DNA from: an uncultured SAR86 cluster bacterium
GTDB lineage: Bacteria; Pseudomonadota; Gammaproteobacteria; Magnimaribacterales; D2472
Reading direction: 5' to 3'
Assembly: GCA_902511575.1 (NCBI GenBank)
Contig: CABXFU010000001.1
Span: 124,001-188,000, forward strand
Length of the DNA stretch: 64,000 nucleotides
The translations under genes were made by a program, and so were the position numbers. Of the stretch, positions 39,372 to 48,765 are shown one piece after another. The notes beneath the pieces are model-generated. The model was not told the DNA's origin. It saw only the letters and a program-made list of their open reading frames with translations, and ran no database searches. Numbering within the stretch: position 1 is the first letter of the stretch; every line of letters begins with the position of its first letter.

Positions 39372-40955
39372 ATGAGCAACTCCAAAAATCTCTCTTTAGA
39401 TAAGAAAAATATTGATACTGTTTTGGTCTTGGACTTTGGCTCTCAATACACTCAACTTATTGCAAGAAGAATTAGAGAGTTGAATGTGTTTTCGGTTATT
39501 CTACCTTGGGATGTTTCAACTGAAAAAATTATATCCCTTAATCCTAGGGGAGTAATTTTATCTGGAGGTCCTGAATCAGTTACCGAATCTAATACTCCAA
39601 GAATACCTAAGATTATTTTTGAATTAGATGTGCCAGTCCTAGGTATTTGTTACGGGATGCAAACTCTTGCAGAGCAATTTGGAGGGCAAGTTTCTTCTTC
39701 AAAAAATAAAGAATTTGGCCATGCCCAAATTCTAGTAGAGAAATCATCCTTGCTTTTTGAAGGATTTGGCTCTGGATCTTCAATTGATGTTTGGATGAGT
39801 CACGGAGATCATGTATCAACTTTGCCAGAAGGTTTTCATTTAATAGCCTCAACTTCATCAGCTCCAATAGCTGCCATGGAGCATGACAGCAAGCCTATTT
39901 TTGCATTGCAGTTCCATCCTGAGGTTACTCACACCAAACAAGGTAATACTGTATTGGAAAATTTTACATTAAAGATCTGCAATTGCTCGGCTCAATGGAA
40001 AATGGAAAATCTTATTGAACAAAGAATAGCTGAGATTGAAGAAAAAGTAGGAGATCAAAAGGTATTGCTTGGTTTATCAGGCGGAGTAGATTCTTCTGTT
40101 ACAGCTATGCTTTTGGATCAAGCGATTGGAAAAAATTTAATTTGTGTTTTTGTTGATAATGGATTGCTTAGAAAAAATGAAGCCGAAGAGGTAGAAAATT
40201 TATTTAAAGATAAGATGGAGTTAAATCTATTAGTTGTTGATGCAAAGAAAGTTTTTTATAGACATCTTAAAGGCATCTCAGATCCAGAGCAGAAAAGAAA
40301 AATTATTGGCAGAACTTTTATTGATATTTTTGATAATGAGGCTGCAAAATTAAAAGATGAGATTAATTTTCTAGCACAGGGCACTATTTATCCTGACGTA
40401 ATTGAATCTTCAGAGTCAGAATCGAAAGAGGCTAGGGTGATTAAATCTCACCACAATGTTGGAGGCCTTCCTGATGATATGAAGATGGAATTAGTGGAGC
40501 CTTTGCGTGATTTATTTAAAGATGAGGTTAGAAACATGGGATCTGAGCTTGGGCTGCCATTGGAGATGTTAAATCGGCATCCATTCCCAGGCCCAGGATT
40601 AGGAGTCAGAATTCTTGGTGAGATTTCCCAAGAAAAAGTTTTAATTCTTCAAAATGCTGATGCAATTTTCATTGAGGAATTAATTAAAGCAGGCTTATAC
40701 GACCATGTAAGCCAAGCATTTTGTGCATTTCTTCCAATTAAATCAGTTGGAGTTGTTGGTGATGAAAGGAGATATGCGGATGTGATAGCGATTAGAGCAG
40801 TTGAGACAGTAGATTTTATGACTGCCACCTGGGCTAGGCTTCCTTATGATTTCTTAGCACATGTCTCAAATCGTATCGTGAATGAATTGGAGGGAGTGAG
40901 CAGGGTGGTTTATGATATTTCTAGTAAACCACCAGCAACTATTGAGTGGGAATAA
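39372..40955 (+). CDS. guaA: GMP synthase (glutamine-hydrolysing)
   Basis: Aminates XMP to GMP. 527 residues, full length. Glutaminase domain: [18 protein letters not shown], nucleophile Cys in [15 protein letters not shown] (about 95), and His/Glu in [13 protein letters not shown] pyrophosphatase P-loop [14 protein letters not shown] at about 232-245. Dimerisation domain: [17 protein letters not shown] and the conserved end [10 protein letters not shown]. The last 77 bases (40881-40957) recur, decayed, at 42867-42943. The guaA 3' end is a known insertion target for genomic islands in bacteria. Normal gammaproteobacterial neighbours such as tadA appear only at 48313. Confidence 0.97.
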
Positions 40956-40956
40956 A

Positions 40957-40981
40957 GGGTTGCTCTGAAACCCCTATTTTT
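40957..40981 (+). terminator. Possible guaA terminator
   Basis: GGGTT (40957-40961) and AACCC (40969-40973) can form a five-pair hairpin two bases after the guaA stop, followed by CTATTTTT. The stem is short, so strength is uncertain. Confidence 0.45.
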
Positions 40982-41100
40982 GCTGGCTTTTGTTACTTGT
41001 AAATTCAGACCATTCCTCTGTTTTGTAACAGCATTCCTTCGTTGTCTTTTTCTATGTAACAATTACACTCTCTTATAAAATTTCATAGTGGTTTTAAGAA

Positions 41101-41928
41101 ATGAAGAATTTCAAAATATTTAATACATTGAATAAAATGGATGTTGAAGATGTTTCTCTTTGGATCGCAGAAGCAGAATTTGGACTAACTCATGTGAAGT
41201 CTCAGATTTCAATACTAGATGAAGAATCTAATATTTTAGAAGTTGGTTGCGGAAGTGGTATTTTACTAGCAATGCTTAGTGAGGAATTCCCAAAACTAAA
41301 ATTTAATGGTATTGAGCCTTATGGAAAAGGTTTCTCTAAACTTAAGAGTTTAAATGAAGCTGTTCAGAAAGAAGGGGTAAATATTAAGATAGAGAGTTAT
41401 GACCAGCATTTACCAAATATAAAATATGACTTTATTTATTGTATTAATGTTTTTGAGCATGTTGATGATTGGAAAGAATTTTTATTATGGGCATCTAAAA
41501 ATCTTAAAAAAAATGGTAAATTTTTTGTTTTGTGTCCTAATTATGGTTTTCCATATGAATCGCACTTTAAAATTCCTATAATTCTTAATAAAAAGGTCAC
41601 TTATAATTTGTTCAAAAATTATATAAATAAATATGAGTTAAGTAATAATTGTTTGGGATTATGGGGCTCACTAAATTTTGTTAAAAAGAGTCAACTTAAA
41701 AAGTATTGTTGTATTAATTTTTCGATGATTGGTTTTACTATAATTGATGATAAGTCTATTATGGATGAAATGGTTGCAAGGATTTCTTATGATTCTGAAT
41801 TTAAAAAGAGACAATCCTTCGTTGGTAAGATTGCTGTGATATTAAAAAGAGTTGGACTTTTCAACTTCGTGAAATTTTTTCCTAATTTCCTACCTTATAT
41901 GAAATTAGTCTTTGTTAAAGATGTTTAG
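41101..41928 (+). CDS. Class I SAM-dependent methyltransferase
   Basis: 275 residues. Motif I is ILEVGCGSGILLAML (about 45-59), with the acidic ribose contact in FNGIEPYG and motif II/post-II in YDFIYCINVFEHVDDW, followed by KNGKFFVLCPNYGFPYESHF. The long C-terminal part (about 150-275) is Lys/Phe/Asn-rich. This type is common in glycan-modification clusters, where it methylates sugars or lipid-linked intermediates; no substrate can be named. The 145-base gap before it holds only the possible guaA terminator and TATAAA near 41075. It lies inside the repeat-bounded islet and reads as more AT-rich than guaA. Confidence 0.8.
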   Translation: MKNFKIFNTLNKMDVEDVSLWIAEAEFGLTHVKSQISILDEESNILEVGCGSGILLAMLSEEFPKLKFNGIEPYGKGFSKLKSLNEAVQKEGVNIKIESYDQHLPNIKYDFIYCINVFEHVDDWKEFLLWASKNLKKNGKFFVLCPNYGFPYESHFKIPIILNKKVTYNLFKNYINKYELSNNCLGLWGSLNFVKKSQLKKYCCINFSMIGFTIIDDKSIMDEMVARISYDSEFKKRQSFVGKIAVILKRVGLFNFVKFFPNFLPYMKLVFVKDV

Positions 41929-42026
41929 TTTTACAAACTTTGTGAGTATTAATTTTCGAAAGTAGTGAAGGGCTCAGCTGAGTTAAAGAAATACACTTTT
42001 AGATAGAACATGGTAAGTTATTGATA

Positions 42027-42851
42027 ATGATTGATGGTAGCAATAGAAATAAAATTGAGAGCAAAGCCAACCGCCTATGGGGGAATGATCTGCACAAAAG
42101 TAATTGCGCACCCGCCCATTGCCCACAACTAGAAAGTGTTTTTAAAGAAAAATGGAGAGATTCTTTAAAAGGTAATTTGCTGGAAATTGGATGTGGAGGT
42201 GGCGCTGATTTAGAAATTTTTTCTAAGATTAAAGAAATAAAAGAAATAACAGCTATTGATCTTGGAGAAAATATAGAAAAACTTGTTGAAAGGTATGAGA
42301 AAAGAAAAGATATTAAAATTAGAAGAGGCAATGCATTATCTCTTGATTTTGATGACAAAAAATTTGATGTCATATATTCGTATGGTGTTTTTCATCATAC
42401 ATCTGATCCAATTAAGTGCATTTCTGAGGCTCAAAGAGTTTTAAAAAATGGAGGAACACTCTTTTTGTATTTGTACAGCTCACATGAAGATATGTTATTA
42501 AAAAGGGTGGGAATTTTCTTAGAAAAAATAATTATGAAATTTTTTGGGTATATCCCTTATAGTCTTCAAAATCTAATATCCATTTTGCTTAGCCCAATTT
42601 GTTGGGTGATTTTCTCTATTCCATCGAATCTCCTAAAGCTTTTTGGATTTAAAACTTTATCTAAAAAAATACCTTTCTATTTTGGTACTCATCCCTTTTC
42701 ATTGATTGGAGATCTTAAAGATAGATTAATGTCACCAATTAATTATAGATTTTCAAAACATGAAATGAAAAAGATATTAGAATCAATAAACTTTAGTTTG
42801 ATTGAGGTGGTCAAAACTTCCGCAGGTTTATATATATATGCAAAAAAATAA
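42027..42851 (+). CDS. Class I SAM-dependent methyltransferase (UbiE/Methyltransf_11-like) with membrane-associated C-terminal part
   Basis: 274 residues from ATG 42027; a TTG two codons earlier is also in frame. Motif I is LLEIGCGGGADLEIF (about 51-65), then ITAIDLGENIEKL, FDVIYSYGVFHHTSDP and AQRVLKNGGTLFLYLYS. Hydrophobic stretches follow (SLQNLISILLSPICWVIFSI), suggesting membrane association, as in some methyltransferases acting on lipid-linked saccharides. The N terminus has RLWGNDLHKSNCAPAHC, a Cys-containing pattern also seen in polysaccharide-cluster methyltransferases. Its stop is directly followed by the guaA 3'-end remnant. Substrate unknown. Confidence 0.8.
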   Translation: MIDGSNRNKIESKANRLWGNDLHKSNCAPAHCPQLESVFKEKWRDSLKGNLLEIGCGGGADLEIFSKIKEIKEITAIDLGENIEKLVERYEKRKDIKIRRGNALSLDFDDKKFDVIYSYGVFHHTSDPIKCISEAQRVLKNGGTLFLYLYSSHEDMLLKRVGIFLEKIIMKFFGYIPYSLQNLISILLSPICWVIFSIPSNLLKLFGFKTLSKKIPFYFGTHPFSLIGDLKDRLMSPINYRFSKHEMKKILESINFSLIEVVKTSAGLYIYAKK

Positions 42852-42854
42852 CGC

Positions 42855-42943
42855 AATAGAATGATTAATGAATTGGAGTTAGTGACCAGGGTGATTAATG
42901 ATATTTCGAGTAAATCACCAGCTACCGTTGAGTGAGAATAAAG
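42855..42943 (+). pseudogene. Decayed guaA 3'-end fragment
   Basis: Read in frame, these bases give NRMINELELVTRVIND and then ISSKSPATVE before a TGA replaces the Trp codon of the normal ending. Against the intact guaA C terminus 18 of 26 residues agree by hand count, and the last 77 bases agree at 66 positions. Differences include many third-position changes, so the fragment looks like an old or foreign guaA copy, not a recent duplication. There is no rest of guaA upstream; the methyltransferase stop precedes it directly. A short CCCC/GGG hairpin lies at about 42969-42982. Confidence 0.85.
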
Positions 42944-43043
42944 TAATCTATTTGAGCTATACAAAAAACCCCAAATTATGGGCTTCTTCTTTCCATTGAT
43001 TCATTTCATGGCATAATTAGCGTGAAAATCCAGTATATGAAAA

Positions 43044-43991
43044 ATGTACATATCCAAATTTAAATATATTCTCAATAATCAAGGTGTGCTTGGTTTGTTC
43101 AGAATTATTATGATGCGTTTATCAAGATTATCAGATTACAAAAATTTAAAAGAAAATGACTATGCCTTAGACTTCATTTTTGAGGGAAATATCAAAATTA
43201 AATTACCTAGAGTTTTTATTAGGGAATTTTTCCCTGGAAGGCAGGCAATGATTCGAATGAAAAATAATTCAGATTACACGACGAGACCTACAGCAGAAGC
43301 TTTATTTCGTAAAAGCATATTTGAAATTTATCAGAGTGGCTATATATGTTCAGATTCTTCAATTATAGATATTGGAAGTTGGATCGGAGACAATAGTTTA
43401 GTTTGGTCAAAATATCTATCAAAAAATGGAAAAGTCCTTGCAATAGATCCTTCGTATAGAAATATCTCATATGGGAAGCTTATTGCTGAGGTGAACAAAA
43501 TAGATAATATTCGTTGGATTGAGGCTGTTTGTGCTGAAAGGTCTGCAATTAAATTAGATTTCAATGGATCAATTGACCATGCCAGTTTTAAAAAAACAAC
43601 TTCAGATAATTATGTTCTGTCTACTACTATTGATGATATTGTGAAATCCGAAGATGTTGTTATAGGCTTTCTTCATGTTGATGTAGAGGGTTTTGAGCTT
43701 TCAGTTTTGAGGGGTTCTGAAGAAGTAATATTGAAAGACAGACCAGTTATTGCTTTTGAGCAACATATTTCCAAAGAAAACTTTAATGAAATATCTGAAT
43801 TTCTTAAATCCTTTAAGTATAAAATTTTTATGGTGAATGAGGTTTTGCCTGATTGTGCTTTGGACTGCAGAAATTTTCTAGCATTCCCTGCTGAAAAGGG
43901 CATTCCTGAGTTGTCTGAATTTGATCATTCTGATGAAAGAGACATTCATATACATCCAGCGACATTGGGCTCAGCTATAATTGAAGTCTAA
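43044..43991 (+). CDS. FkbM-family methyltransferase
   Basis: 315 residues. The SAM-binding start is IIDIGSWIGDNSLVW (about 107-121), with VLAIDPSYRN, a C-terminal TTIDDIV and the family hallmark FLHVDVEGFELSVLRGSEEVI (given within the 20-residue limit as HVDVEGFELSVLRG, about 212-225). FkbM-type enzymes O-methylate sugars or polyketides; in polysaccharide clusters they decorate glycans. It follows the guaA remnant and is the first gene of the second part of the accessory region. CATAAT (43011-43016) may be a -10. No Shine-Dalgarno is clear. Substrate not deducible. Confidence 0.85.
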   Translation: MYISKFKYILNNQGVLGLFRIIMMRLSRLSDYKNLKENDYALDFIFEGNIKIKLPRVFIREFFPGRQAMIRMKNNSDYTTRPTAEALFRKSIFEIYQSGYICSDSSIIDIGSWIGDNSLVWSKYLSKNGKVLAIDPSYRNISYGKLIAEVNKIDNIRWIEAVCAERSAIKLDFNGSIDHASFKKTTSDNYVLSTTIDDIVKSEDVVIGFLHVDVEGFELSVLRGSEEVILKDRPVIAFEQHISKENFNEISEFLKSFKYKIFMVNEVLPDCALDCRNFLAFPAEKGIPELSEFDHSDERDIHIHPATLGSAIIEV

Positions 43992-44087
43992 TTCATAAAT
44001 AATTTCAGTTTTACGCCTAGCATCAATTCAAAGCATATTGTTGTTGCAATCTAATTTTTATCTGTAAAACCTTAACATAATAAGAGC

Positions 44088-44188
44088 TATAATCATTTAT
44101 GCAAAGAGAATTTATACAAGAGGATAGTCTGAAAGTTTAACTAAAAGTTATGCAAACACATTATGAAAAAAATATTTTTGAAGAGTAA
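44088..44188 (+). other. Promoter-like box followed by two very short ORFs in a 217-base gap
   Basis: TATAAT (44088-44093) lies five bases before an ATG opening a 13-codon ORF (44099-44140, MQREFIQEDSLKV). A second 12-codon ORF (44150-44188, MQTHYEKNIFEE) follows, in another frame. The second peptide looks like the start of a methyltransferase, so this could be debris of a lost gene. A leader peptide or non-coding 5' leader of the downstream glycosyltransferase is an alternative. The rest of 43992-44208 shows nothing recognisable. Confidence 0.3.
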
Positions 44189-44208
44189 GTAAGTAAAGAA
44201 ATAATCAA

Positions 44209-45222
44209 ATGAAAATAGAATCGCCAAAAGTATTTCATATCATTCCATCTGATTCACTTGGTGGCGTTGAAACTGCAGCAATCCGCGCAGAGGCTGATCT
44301 AAAGTTACTGATGAATTTTGACTTGATTGTTATCAGTCCTGAGTCTTGCGGTTGGTTTAAAACTCTAATTCATCTCTTTCAAAAGATCTTGCTAGTTTTC
44401 AGAGAGCACAATCCTACAATAGTTACATCACTATGGAAGAGTCATGTATTGGGTTTTTGTTTATCAGTTGTCAAGAGTGATCTTCGTTGGATTCCCTTTT
44501 ATCACTCTTCAACGCATTTTGGAAAAATGGATACATTTTTTAGTAAATTATCATTGAGATGTTGCAATAACGCATTTGTTGATTCACGTCAGACAGGTCT
44601 TTTTATTAGATCTTTTGCACCTAAATTAAATTTACATGTAATACCATATGTTTTTGATGTCGAGGCTTATGATCAAACGCTGAATAAGACAATAGACTTT
44701 ATTTGGGTTGGAAGGGATGATCAAAATAAAAATTTATTAGGTTTTGTAAAGTTTTGCGAGTACATGCAAAGCATAAACGCCAAAGTTAATATAGTAGTAG
44801 TCTCATCAAATAACATAGACCCCGGTCTTTTGGAAAGTCTTTCAAATATTGATTCTCTTGCTATTTATACGCATTTAACATGGGAGGAAACTCAAAAACA
44901 CATATTAAATGCAAAATTAATGGTTTGTACTTCATTTAAAGAAGGGTTTTCGATGGTATCTCATGAGGCCCTTGGTCTCGGTTGTTTGCCTTGCGGGAAT
45001 TTAGTATCTGAAGTACATAAAATTATAGCGGGAAAAGTGCCACAGCTTAATAGTTTTTCTAGTAATGACTTTAAAAAATTTTATCTCGAGGCGATAACTT
45101 TGCTAGAAAATTCAAATATTAGAAATGATAATGTAAGGATTTGTTGTGACTTGATTAAAAATGAATATCCAGAAAATTATATTGGATCATTTTTCCAAAA
45201 TATCAAATCACTTCAGCTATAA
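44209..45222 (+). CDS. Glycosyltransferase family 4
   Basis: 337 residues of GT-B fold. The N-terminal FHIIPSDSLGGVETAAIRA (about 6-24) carries the Gly-Gly loop of GT4 enzymes. The C-terminal domain has FIWVGRDDQNKNLLGF (about 164-179) and FKEGFSMVSHEALGLGCLPC with the Glu-x7-Glu pattern. It would transfer a sugar from a nucleotide donor in the accessory glycan pathway after guaA. It reads as a separate unit 217 bases after the FkbM gene, with a promoter-like box at 44088. No Shine-Dalgarno is visible. Acceptor and sugar unknown. Confidence 0.82.
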   Translation: MKIESPKVFHIIPSDSLGGVETAAIRAEADLKLLMNFDLIVISPESCGWFKTLIHLFQKILLVFREHNPTIVTSLWKSHVLGFCLSVVKSDLRWIPFYHSSTHFGKMDTFFSKLSLRCCNNAFVDSRQTGLFIRSFAPKLNLHVIPYVFDVEAYDQTLNKTIDFIWVGRDDQNKNLLGFVKFCEYMQSINAKVNIVVVSSNNIDPGLLESLSNIDSLAIYTHLTWEETQKHILNAKLMVCTSFKEGFSMVSHEALGLGCLPCGNLVSEVHKIIAGKVPQLNSFSSNDFKKFYLEAITLLENSNIRNDNVRICCDLIKNEYPENYIGSFFQNIKSLQL

Positions 45223-45300
45223 TCCTTTTCGCCATGCCATTCATTTTAAACACGAACCAGTTACTATATTTTGATAATTCAATTCACAATTCAATTTTAG

Positions 45301-46539
45301 ATGAGTAGCAAATCAAAAAAAACTTTAATTTGTTTCGATTCTGCATATTCTCTTTCTGCATATGAGGCTGGATCATTGCAAATATTTCAAGAAGGTAAAT
45401 TATTAGATGGATACTTTGACAAGCTGTACGTAGTTAATATTGCATCTAATATAAATAATCCTGACTCAGTTGGTAGAAGTAAATTAATTAAGCTCTCAGA
45501 ACGTATTGAATACTTAGATGTACCTTTGGGGAGATTCAGATCTCTTAAATCGTTCATGAAAATTAACTTCTTATTTTCTATTTTTTCTACAGTTTTTTTA
45601 GCAGTGCGGTTATGTAAAAAAAATGATGTATCTTTTATTAGAGGAGAGAACCCTCAAGTGAACGGCCTGCTGGCATTGCTAGTTTCAAAGTTAACACGTA
45701 TTCCATTATTTATTGGGGTTTGGGGTAATCCTGCTGAATTAAGGGATGACATGGGCTCCCCAATGTATCCAAATCTATTGAAATTTATCGCTATTGAGGT
45801 ATTTATTGAAAAACTTGTTCTAAAATCTGCAGACAGAGTCTTAGTTCAAAATAAGAATAACAAAAATTTTGTGATGAACTATTTAAAATCAGATAAAAAT
45901 ATTAGATTATTTAGAGTGTCAAATCAGATTGATGATATCCATTATATTGATCCAAAACTTCGAGAAAAACCTGATAATTTTTTTAATGAATTTGAGCTAT
46001 TAGGTCAAAGTAAGATGCTGATAATTTCAAGACTTGAAGAACAAAAAAGAGTCCTTGATGCAATAAAAGTTATTTCTTATTTAGTAAATGTTCAATCAAT
46101 GTATGTGGATCTATTTATTTGTGGAGTGGGTCCTGAAGAAGAATATTTAAAGAAATATGCAATTGAGAATGGCGTTATTGATAATATTCATTTTTGTGGA
46201 ATGCGAGATCAATTATGGCTGTCAACAGCTATTCCTTTGATGGATCTATGTATTTCTCCAATTACTGGGAGAGCGTTGGTTGAGGTTGCGCTGGGAGCGA
46301 TCCCAGTTGTTGGCTATGATAGAGATTGGCAGACTGAGCTTATTGAGCATGACATTACGGGCTACATCTGTGATTTTAATGATGTTAAAGCATTATCTTA
46401 TTTTTCATATGTTGCATTACAGAATCGAGAAAAAGCAATAAATATGGGGCATGAACTTCGTCATCGGGCATTAAATATTTTTAACAAAGATCTTGCATTG
46501 GAAACTGAAAAGAGTTGTTATGATGAGTTCTTAAATTAA
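45301..46539 (+). CDS. Glycosyltransferase family 4
   Basis: 412 residues, GT-B fold. N-terminal domain with FIRGENPQVNGLLALLVSKL and PLFIGVWGNPAELRDD. C-terminal domain with MLIISRLEEQKRVLDAI, FICGVGPEEEYLKKYAIENG and FCGMRDQLWLSTAIPLMDL, then ISPITGRALVEVALGAIPVVGYD with the catalytic Glu region. It lies 78 bases after the previous glycosyltransferase and 13 bases before the GT2 gene, likely one operon with the latter. It probably acts on a lipid-linked oligosaccharide. No preference can be read for donor sugar. Confidence 0.83.
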   Translation: MSSKSKKTLICFDSAYSLSAYEAGSLQIFQEGKLLDGYFDKLYVVNIASNINNPDSVGRSKLIKLSERIEYLDVPLGRFRSLKSFMKINFLFSIFSTVFLAVRLCKKNDVSFIRGENPQVNGLLALLVSKLTRIPLFIGVWGNPAELRDDMGSPMYPNLLKFIAIEVFIEKLVLKSADRVLVQNKNNKNFVMNYLKSDKNIRLFRVSNQIDDIHYIDPKLREKPDNFFNEFELLGQSKMLIISRLEEQKRVLDAIKVISYLVNVQSMYVDLFICGVGPEEEYLKKYAIENGVIDNIHFCGMRDQLWLSTAIPLMDLCISPITGRALVEVALGAIPVVGYDRDWQTELIEHDITGYICDFNDVKALSYFSYVALQNREKAINMGHELRHRALNIFNKDLALETEKSCYDEFLN

Positions 46540-46552
46540 AGATTAAGGTTGT

Positions 46553-47584
46553 ATGAGCAAAGAAAATAACACAGCTGTTTCAGACCTAAGTATTATTATT
46601 CCATCAAGAAATGATAGAGTTTTTCTCTTAGAGCTGCTAAAACAATTATGCATTCTGCCACTTAAGTGTTCTGAAATAATTATCGTAGATTCATCTGATA
46701 TCAAAAAATCCTTAACTGATGAAATAAAGTCTTTATTTCAGAATAAATCTTATGAGGTAAGACACATTTTTTCTAATGCAACTTCCCCTGGTGAATCAAG
46801 GAATGAGGGCGTTGCTATAGCCAATGGAAATTGGCTAGGTTTTCTTGATACAAAAACAATACCTAATAACAGTTGGGTTGAATCCTGCGAAAATGCAATC
46901 CTAACCAAAGGCTGCCATGGGTTGTGGGGCAAAACATCATATTATGGAAATGGGTTATATGAAAATATCATTATTGCCTCAACCTACGGATTTAAAGATC
47001 TCATTACTGTTCCAGGTATGATTATAAAAAAAGAAAAATTTCTTCATGTTGGAAATTTTCTTCATTTATCAGCAGGTGAAGATACTGACTGGATGCTTAG
47101 ATTAAAACAACATTGTATTTCATTGAGTACCCCTAATAATAAAACTATTAATTATTTTGGAATTACTGAACTTAATTTAATTAGGATAATAAAAAAATGG
47201 TACAAAAATTATAGGGCATGTCGCTCCATCCATCATTTAAAAGATCACCGTATCATTTACCTAGCATTTTTTAATATTTTTATACTACTGTTAGTTTTTA
47301 ACTGGAATGCTGTATTTGCTAACTGGGATATTGATAGCGCATTTTTTATTCCAAATATCTCAAAGATTACCGCAGCAATTATTTTTGCTGTTTATTTTTT
47401 ATTTAGAGCAATCTTACTGCCCTTATTAAGAGGTTGTTCATTTAAATTTCTATTACCAGGAAATTTTATTCTTATCTTTGGTTTAGGTGTAATCATTGAT
47501 TGTATTAAATTTATAGCTTTTTTTCCTTCATTCAAATCTTTAAAAGTTTCATTCCAAAGAATTTTACATAGAGCTCAAATTTAA
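46553..47584 (+). CDS. Glycosyltransferase family 2 with C-terminal membrane segments
   Basis: 343 residues. GT-A start LSIIIPSRNDRVFLLELL (about 12-29), SEIIIVDSSD (first Asp), ATSPGESRNEGVAIANGNWLGFLDTKT split here as GESRNEGVAIANG and FLDTKT (the DxD-equivalent), and GEDTDWMLRLKQH. Several membrane helices follow from about residue 230 (LAFFNIFILLLVFNWNAVF and on). This is typical of inner-membrane GT2 enzymes transferring sugars in polysaccharide assembly. It is the last glycan gene before the core region resumes with the nitroreductase at 47644, so it marks the likely right end of the accessory block. Confidence 0.83.
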   Translation: MSKENNTAVSDLSIIIPSRNDRVFLLELLKQLCILPLKCSEIIIVDSSDIKKSLTDEIKSLFQNKSYEVRHIFSNATSPGESRNEGVAIANGNWLGFLDTKTIPNNSWVESCENAILTKGCHGLWGKTSYYGNGLYENIIIASTYGFKDLITVPGMIIKKEKFLHVGNFLHLSAGEDTDWMLRLKQHCISLSTPNNKTINYFGITELNLIRIIKKWYKNYRACRSIHHLKDHRIIYLAFFNIFILLLVFNWNAVFANWDIDSAFFIPNISKITAAIIFAVYFLFRAILLPLLRGCSFKFLLPGNFILIFGLGVIIDCIKFIAFFPSFKSLKVSFQRILHRAQI

Positions 47585-47643
47585 TAAAACTTACCCATCA
47601 TAAATGAATCATTAAACTTAGATATAAGTTATACTTTTTAGTC

Positions 47644-48297
47644 ATGAATGTATCTGATGCCATATTCTCAAGATCTTCAGTAAGAGCGTTTACCAAAAAA
47701 CCAGTTGATAATTTATTAATTAAAAGTTTATTAGAGAAGTCTTCAAGATCGCCCTCCGGTGGAAACCTTCAGCCGTGGAAAATCTACGTTCTAAATAATC
47801 AATCTATGATAGATTTTCTTTCTCATCAGGATAATTGGGATAAGCCGGAAACACCTTCTTATGAAATTTATCCCCCTAAATTAAAAGAGCCATATAGAAC
47901 TTCAAGATATGAATTGGGAGAACAAATGTATTCAATTCTTGGTATTGAAAAGCAAGATAAAGATGCCCGAATTAATCAAGTAATGAAAAACTTTAGATTC
48001 TTTGGTGCTCCATCAGCTTTTTTTTGCTTTGTTGATCGCCAAATGGGTTATCCCCAATGGTCAGATCTTGGAATGTTTCTCCAAACATTTATGCTCTTGG
48101 CTAAGGAGGCTGGTTTAGATACATGTGCGCAAGAAGCATGGTCTATAAAGCATGATAGTGTTTCTGAGTTTGTTAAGGCCGATGAGGATGATATGCTGTT
48201 TTGCGGTATGTGCATAGGTTTTCGTGATGATAAAGATCCCATAAATACTCTTCAATCTCAGCGTAGACCTATTGAAGATTGGGCCAAATTTATATAA
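47644..48297 (+). CDS. Nitroreductase-family FMN oxidoreductase
   Basis: 217 residues, NAD(P)H:FMN nitroreductase fold. The FMN contacts RSSVRAFTKKPVDN (about 9-22) and SSRSPSGGNLQPWKIYVL (about 34-51) are clear. LGMFLQTFMLLAKEAGLDTCAQEAW is present in parts, and the C-terminal LFCGMCIGFRDDKDPINTLQSQR is cut here to FCGMCIGFRDD. Such enzymes reduce nitro compounds, quinones or enones; the natural substrate is unknown. TATACT (47630-47635) lies eight bases before the ATG, leaving almost no leader. It precedes tadA by 15 bases. Confidence 0.88.
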   Translation: MNVSDAIFSRSSVRAFTKKPVDNLLIKSLLEKSSRSPSGGNLQPWKIYVLNNQSMIDFLSHQDNWDKPETPSYEIYPPKLKEPYRTSRYELGEQMYSILGIEKQDKDARINQVMKNFRFFGAPSAFFCFVDRQMGYPQWSDLGMFLQTFMLLAKEAGLDTCAQEAWSIKHDSVSEFVKADEDDMLFCGMCIGFRDDKDPINTLQSQRRPIEDWAKFI

Positions 48298-48312
48298 TTT
48301 TCAAAATTTAAA

Positions 48313-48765
48313 ATGTATTTAGATGACCATATGAGCTTGGCAATTAGCATGGCTGAAATCGCATATGAAAAAGATGAGGTTCCAGTAGGGGCGGTTGTTG
48401 TAAAAAATGGAGAAGTAATTGGAAAGGGCTTTAATAATGTAATTTCTAAGAATTCTGTTACAGCACATGCTGAAATTATTGCCATTAATAATGCAAGCCG
48501 ATCAATTAATAATTACAGACTCAAAAATTGTGAAATATATGTCACTCTTGAGCCATGCCATATGTGTGCAAAAGCGATTGTGGATGCAAGACTAGATTAT
48601 TTATATTTTGGAGCTAACGAGCCAAAAACTGGCGCAATAGAGTCCATTGACCAATTCCTAAGCAATAATAATTTAAATCATAAGGTCACATTTAGCGGTG
48701 GCCATATGAAAAAAGAATCTTCTGAGATACTTAAAAAGTTCTTTCGATCAAAGAGAGGCCTATAA
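48313..48765 (+). CDS. tadA: tRNA adenosine(34) deaminase
   Basis: Deaminates A34 to inosine in tRNA-Arg(ACG). 150 residues. Zinc and catalytic residues are in TAHAEIIAI (His52, Glu54) and LEPCHMCAKAIV (Cys82, Cys85). The family end region FGANEPKTGAIES is present. In several gammaproteobacteria tadA lies close to guaA; here about 7.3 kb of methyltransferase and glycosyltransferase genes plus a nitroreductase intervene, supporting an insertion after guaA. TATAAT (48293-48298) could be its own -10. Confidence 0.93.
   Translation: MYLDDHMSLAISMAEIAYEKDEVPVGAVVVKNGEVIGKGFNNVISKNSVTAHAEIIAINNASRSINNYRLKNCEIYVTLEPCHMCAKAIVDARLDYLYFGANEPKTGAIESIDQFLSNNNLNHKVTFSGGHMKKESSEILKKFFRSKRGL

Follow-up and report, generated by a model that had tools for sequence, protein, structure and literature searches.

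Small integrase-less cassettes occur as tandem arrays just downstream of guaA in SAR86 bacteria, and each of them ends in the last bases of guaA itself (core GAGTGGGA). The window, which is the whole stretch of 64,000 nucleotides analysed here, comes from an uncultured SAR86 cluster bacterium (contig CABXFU010000001.1, positions 124,001 to 188,000), and the two methyltransferase genes that it carries directly behind guaA appear to be an old derivative of such a cassette. The best overall explanation, and one that we consider probable, is that cassettes insert at the 3′ end of guaA with an integrase supplied in trans, and that the window unit (40956-42943) descends from one of them. This reading would account for the accessory methyltransferases exactly behind guaA and for the nature of the guaA remnant that follows them. 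It also touches on the open question of how ocean bacteria that are streamlined, largely uncultured and poor in mobile elements still exchange single genes over great phylogenetic distance. With a landing site in an essential gene and an 18-nt signature, this exchange can be counted in single-cell and metagenome data and allows a defined biochemical test.

The genome of the window comprises 1.39 Mb in 25 contigs and is 83% complete. The features of the region, all of them on the forward strand, are the following:

39372..40955, +, guaA (GMP synthase), intact, with the landing site at its 3′ end
40938..40955, +, attachment core ACTATTGAGTGGGAATAA, with GAGTGGGA at 40944-40951; sole exact copy in the window genome
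40952..41100, +, canonical cassette left end, CTGAAACCCCTA... leader, with in-register matches to the left ends of other cassettes
41101..41928, +, MT1, class I methyltransferase (Pfam Methyltransf_23)
42021..42851, +, MT2, class I methyltransferase (Pfam Methyltransf_11)
42855..42943, +, decayed guaA 3′ tail that closes the first unit on the right; its core is mutated to GAGTGAGA (42930-42937)
43044..43991, +, FkbM-family methyltransferase (Pfam Methyltransf_21)
44209..45222, +, GT4-type glycosyltransferase (weak match, just under the Pfam cut-off)
45301..46539, +, second GT4-type glycosyltransferase (Pfam)
46553..47584, +, GT2-type glycosyltransferase (Pfam), with hydrophobic segments at the C-terminus
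47644..48765, +, nitroreductase (47644-48297) and tadA (48313-48765); right border of the variable interval, conserved in many relatives

The gene content given by the first-pass annotation (two class I methyltransferases, one FkbM, two GT4 and one GT2 enzyme between guaA and nitroreductase/tadA) agrees with the open reading frames and the Pfam matches, and the wide gaps that it pointed out are present (145 nt between guaA and MT1, 192 nt between MT2 and FkbM, 217 nt between FkbM and the first GT4). The guaA remnant that it placed in the middle of the block is also genuine: positions 42855-42943 match 40869-40957 at 82% over 89 nt (85% over 75 nt, E 5e-18, when the remnant is compared with the guaA end by BLAST), and a search of the whole window genome revealed no further strong copy of the guaA end. 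Base composition gives a divided answer, with a GC content of 0.27-0.33 in the genes of the block versus 0.35-0.37 in guaA, nitroreductase and tadA, and 0.32 in the flanking xth; since the latter is as low as the block, composition by itself is weak proof of foreign origin.

Downstream of guaA, SAR86 loci contain many exact 18-21-nt copies of the guaA end. A total of 28 extra core sites were found in 20 of 41 guaA loci, all within 4.4 kb, where a Markov model predicts 0, and the opposite strand of the same 41 loci has none. Genome-wide, the core sites lie mostly downstream of guaA, and a reversed control pattern gave two matches in 100 genomes. Two or more sites matching a strict pattern are present in 26 of the 70 site-bearing SAR86 genomes versus 3 of 78 elsewhere in the class (p 2e-7). 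This pattern misses arrays of the Halieaceae that have slightly different flanks (L199-L203), and the true spread is therefore wider than SAR86; in SAR11 relatives, sites are clustered in 9 of 27 site-bearing genomes. The Halieaceae arrays, which belong to relatives of Halioglobus, have two to five sites each and CTGGCACTGGC repeats after the core that resemble the end of GIsul2; BLAST and motif searches of their open reading frames revealed no obvious integrase.

The units delimited by these sites measure mostly 0.4-3 kb and usually contain one or two genes. The largest open reading frame runs in the direction of guaA in 43 of 53 units, and in about 15 it starts within 16 nt of the core. Their cargo includes GMP reductase, amine oxidase, enoyl-CoA hydratase, a MATE transporter, dioxygenases, FkbM, polysaccharide deacetylase, a NucS-type nuclease and many unknowns, so that at guaA elsewhere all kinds of genes are carried and glycan genes are not the main part. 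GMP reductase is also found downstream of guaA in loci that have no sites, and it may therefore be a native neighbour. With insertions that recur at a single site and leave copies of a host gene's end as their marks, the arrays have the form of additive flexible genomic islands.

Two side observations concern these arrays. Four loci of the window's genus (L108, L110, L111 and L114) have a second landing site, a mimic of the guaA end of approximately 20 codons that ends in ACTATTGAGTGGGA and adjoins a gene that, read by eye, resembles a D-2-hydroxyacid dehydrogenase; in L108 the mimic is followed at a distance of 6.3 kb by a cassette-type right end. One cassette (L049:3061-3516) encodes a protein of 152 aa whose N-terminus is DUF6538-like (below the cut-off) and whose C-terminus is hydrophobic; a plain integrase remnant is a doubtful reading of it, since it belongs to a small family present in 23 of 100 SAR86 genomes.

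The right ends of the cassettes have a structure of their own, a pair of 7-12-nt direct repeats with an 11-nt period located some 65-85 nt upstream of the core. Repeats of this period at a fixed place before the core are found in 49 of 61 units, compared with 7.4% of interior windows, and their sequences vary (GTTACACG, CTTGTAAACT, TGACAAACT, TGACACA and others) around TTACAAACT. Such pairs presumably resemble the arms of the attP site of lambda-type integrases, and by this analogy they may be arm-type integrase sites. Cassettes that have a left leader also tend to contain their own repeat in it, with the repeat present in the own left end in 9 of 35 cases, versus 3.5 expected (p 0.0016), a value to be taken with caution, given that it comes from a second, narrower test limited to the repeats themselves, the first and broader test of left/right repeat matching having been not significant (p 0.087).

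The tandem arrangement of promoterless single-gene units with diverse cargo and one 3′ recombination site each brings to mind true integrons with attC sites. In such arrays a folded site is expected, and no conserved hairpin is supported in the right end of the cassettes: there is no covariation, and stems of at least 6 occur in 7 of 32 right ends versus 14% of interior windows. Moreover, the core is GAGTGGGA rather than that of integrons, the landing site is guaA, and no integron integrase is linked to the arrays. With the attC-type folded site, the integron core and the linked integrase all absent, the notion of an integron cassette array is largely refuted, and we regard it as highly improbable.

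Viral sequences were also searched for the repeat pairs, and four chance matches were obtained, none of them with a core. Separately, two viral contigs of 108 and 203 kb (L099 and L104, IMG/VR 3300033273) have approximately 207 nt in common, at 99% identity and in different surroundings. This common stretch looks like the right end of a cassette (a repeat pair GTTAGAAACTTGTTAGAAA, followed by ACTATTGAGTGGGA), and in L104 it is immediately preceded by a putative DNA methyltransferase.

Evidence of mobility comes from cassettes that are shared by distant hosts. One of 571 nt is identical at 571 of 571 positions in genomes of two SAR86 families (G021 of f1 and G090 of f2) whose guaA proteins share 59%, and another of 1308 nt is 99.8% identical between two species. 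The protein of the 571-nt cassette, which has no Pfam match, was used to search genome records, and the carriers thus located belong to SAR86, the PS1 clade and Pelagibacteraceae, together with the isolate Halioglobus pacificus KCTC 23430. Over the first 456 nt, identity is complete (100%) in the alphaproteobacterium PS1 and reaches 99.6% in Halioglobus pacificus and 96% in Pelagibacteraceae (SAR11); past this point the sequence varies between carriers, right end included. In most carriers the cassette lies immediately after the host's own guaA (it is a later member of the array in L143 and L147), and the switch from host to cassette sequence falls inside TGGGA. In Halioglobus the flanks have a GC content of 0.57 and the cassette one of 0.38, and the cassette is absent from all 18 relatives with a readable guaA end. 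The phage, plasmid and viral collections searched contain no copy of it. The same cassette gene is also found with right ends of different families (L145 and L150 versus L139), the sequence changing just past the gene, as if right ends had been exchanged between cassettes.

These shared cassettes bear on the idea that the units are the debris of ordinary islands or prophages targeted to guaA, that is, cis-mobilisable remnants minus their integrase, and that a distinct class of minimal cassettes does not exist. Islands and prophages that bear an integrase do use guaA (L094, L096 and L100), and the core of the window unit is decayed. However, the units are short, mostly of one gene, repeatedly complete and near-identical in distant hosts, and of 58 cassette proteins none could be assigned, among the matches listed, to the machinery of phages or of conjugation. 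An origin as debris seems doubtful to us on these grounds, though it is the alternative to which we give the most weight.

The unit of the window is probably an altered member of this group. The 149 nt that follow the guaA core share in-register runs of 16, 15, 13, 12 and 11 nt with the left ends of other cassettes, while the third-best run never exceeded 9 nt in 500 controls; its left end is thus in the common register. At its right end, in place of repeats with an 11-nt period and an intact core, there is a guaA tail with the mutated core GAGTGAGA, which starts 3 nt after the MT2 stop. The tail is nearest to the guaA of the window genome itself (81.6%), and given that the guaA ends of the nearest species are 89.7% identical to that gene, it must be either old or fast-decaying. 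Judged from its sequence, 40956-42943 is supported as an old derivative of a guaA-site cassette whose right end was replaced by a guaA tail, an assignment based on the left end and the tail, the canonical right end being lacking; because of this replacement, the unit is probably no longer mobile. The tail could derive either from the integration of a circle with a captured guaA tail or from the joining of a donor fragment broken in guaA. The existence of the cassette system is better supported than the membership of this unit, and both are better supported than the phage-escape role that the first-pass annotation gave to the surface-glycan genes of the block.

Tails of other lengths are found elsewhere (240 nt in L045 and 403 nt in L058). 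In the second of these loci (G049:C2:288652-290609) the tail is a partial second copy of guaA (96%) directly after the gene, with a join inside the core (ATTGA, then TTAGG) that is either a real rearrangement or an assembly fault. A fixed crossover point would not yield tails of such different lengths, and they speak for homologous recombination alone, in which the glycan interval between guaA and tadA is swapped through its conserved flanks and the remnant marks the place where a donor fragment with a break in guaA was joined after MT2. The conserved borders with wholly different content point the same way, replacement islands are known in aquatic bacteria (PMC4033161), and a swap of this kind probably accounts for 42944-47584. 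What it leaves unexplained is why the 18-nt core recurs exactly and with a strand bias, why the window has a cassette left end, and why one cassette is present at the same base behind the guaA of different classes. As the sole process, homologous exchange is in our judgement unlikely.

The glycan interval itself was compared by means of guaA and up to 20 kb downstream of it in 40 relatives, each species being represented by a single and in many cases incomplete genome. Across SAR86 the interval between guaA and (nitroreductase)-tadA varies in size and content, nearly every relative being different; in many of them tadA ends it at about 1 to 18 kb from guaA, and in the window's genus nitroreductase is usually beside tadA. 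The three relatives whose guaA is most similar (94-95%) lack MT1, FkbM and both GT4 in the compared stretch, and they show no more than distant similarities to GT2 or MT2. A close homologue of MT2 exists in one of 59 relatives (G025, 65%, 10.7 kb downstream of guaA), FkbM has none in the 59, and distant relatives of the window's GT2 recur in the interval of other SAR86. The same genes in the same order are thus not found in all close relatives, and the hot spot proposed between guaA and tadA stands, the interval being hypervariable throughout the window's family.

The proposal of two successive insertions holds in its first half only. Positions 40956-42943 are classifiable as derived from a guaA-site cassette, whereas 42944-47640 has neither an att-like site at its right end nor a cassette left end from 42944, and it is not supported as a discrete insertion. 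Its genes (42944-47584) are best seen as ordinary glycan-island turnover, part of an interval that is exchanged whole: the flanks are conserved and the content is unrelated but similar in function, as in replacement flexible genomic islands.

Taken together, these observations suggest how the arrays could be built. The last codons of guaA (ACTATTGAGTGGGA) would be the attachment site, and small integrase-less cassettes, for which we infer a circular form, would enter by site-specific recombination within TGGGA. Each cassette would supply guaA with a new last-codon end and stop, plus its cargo, and its right end, in which a pair of arm-type repeats and a spacer come before a fresh core, would permit further insertions to stack as a tandem array behind an intact guaA. 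Many cargo genes, which start at most about 16 nt from the core and point in the direction of guaA, are probably read from the guaA promoter. In the window, MT1 and MT2 would be the old derivative, and the glycosyltransferases beyond them would belong to the generally variable glycan interval.

No integrase was found in the arrays or beside guaA in the SAR86, PS1, SAR11 and Halioglobus genomes examined. The recombinase would most likely act in trans: a phage or integrative element that is present only transiently would encode a tyrosine integrase that, like the one of GIsul2, is specific for guaA. The integrase of GIsul2, the closest precedent with experimental tests, uses the core GAGTGGGA at guaA and is still specific for TGGG after removal of att sites; in a RecA-deficient strain it also mobilises the integrase-less CR2-sul2 unit into guaA (PMC9376610). 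We lean slightly towards a broader picture, in which SAR86, SAR11, PS1 and Halieaceae would share a pool of minimal cassettes (cargo plus an attP-like end) that enter the guaA 3′ end when a visiting element brings an integrase, an integron-like system that has no resident integrase and is expressed from the guaA promoter. No description of guaA cassettes in SAR86 or SAR11 was found in the open-access literature, and their novelty is provisional.

Several known systems resemble parts of this one. Integron arrays also consist of small, promoterless, tandem cassettes with a 3′ recombination site and diverse cargo, but the cassettes described here have another core, another landing site, arm-type repeats in double-stranded form instead of a folded attC, and no resident integron integrase. 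Tycheposons, as in Methylophilaceae, likewise bring cargo to the end of a host gene in streamlined ocean bacteria and are linked to tyrosine recombinases; they differ in their tRNA target, their size of 4-200 kb and the recombinase gene that they contain (PMC10872708). Replacement flexible genomic islands are glycan intervals between conserved genes that are exchanged whole, which fits 42944-47584, but they have no site-specific cores and leave the cassettes unexplained (PMC4033161, PMC11898729). GIsul2 and CR2-sul2 share with the cassettes the guaA 3′ end, the core GAGTGGGA (mutated to GAGTGAGA at the right of the window unit), the stacked att sites and an integrase-less unit moved by an integrase located elsewhere in the element (PMC9376610). 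GIsul2, however, measures about 15 kb and has its own integrase, while the cassettes are made of cargo and ends only, often several in a row, with different arm sequences and with no integrase of their own adjoining guaA. Finally, the additive flexible genomic islands of Ca. Methylopumilus, a streamlined bacterium of aquatic habitats, are also built of stacked insertions, and each insertion carries the 3′ end of a host gene as its mark, in their case a repeat that corresponds to the last 20 bp of tRNA-Lys (PMC10872708). Those islands, studied in one lineage, have a tRNA target and units of 330 bp to 42 kb, whereas the cassettes at guaA have a protein gene as target, small units and identical copies in different classes.
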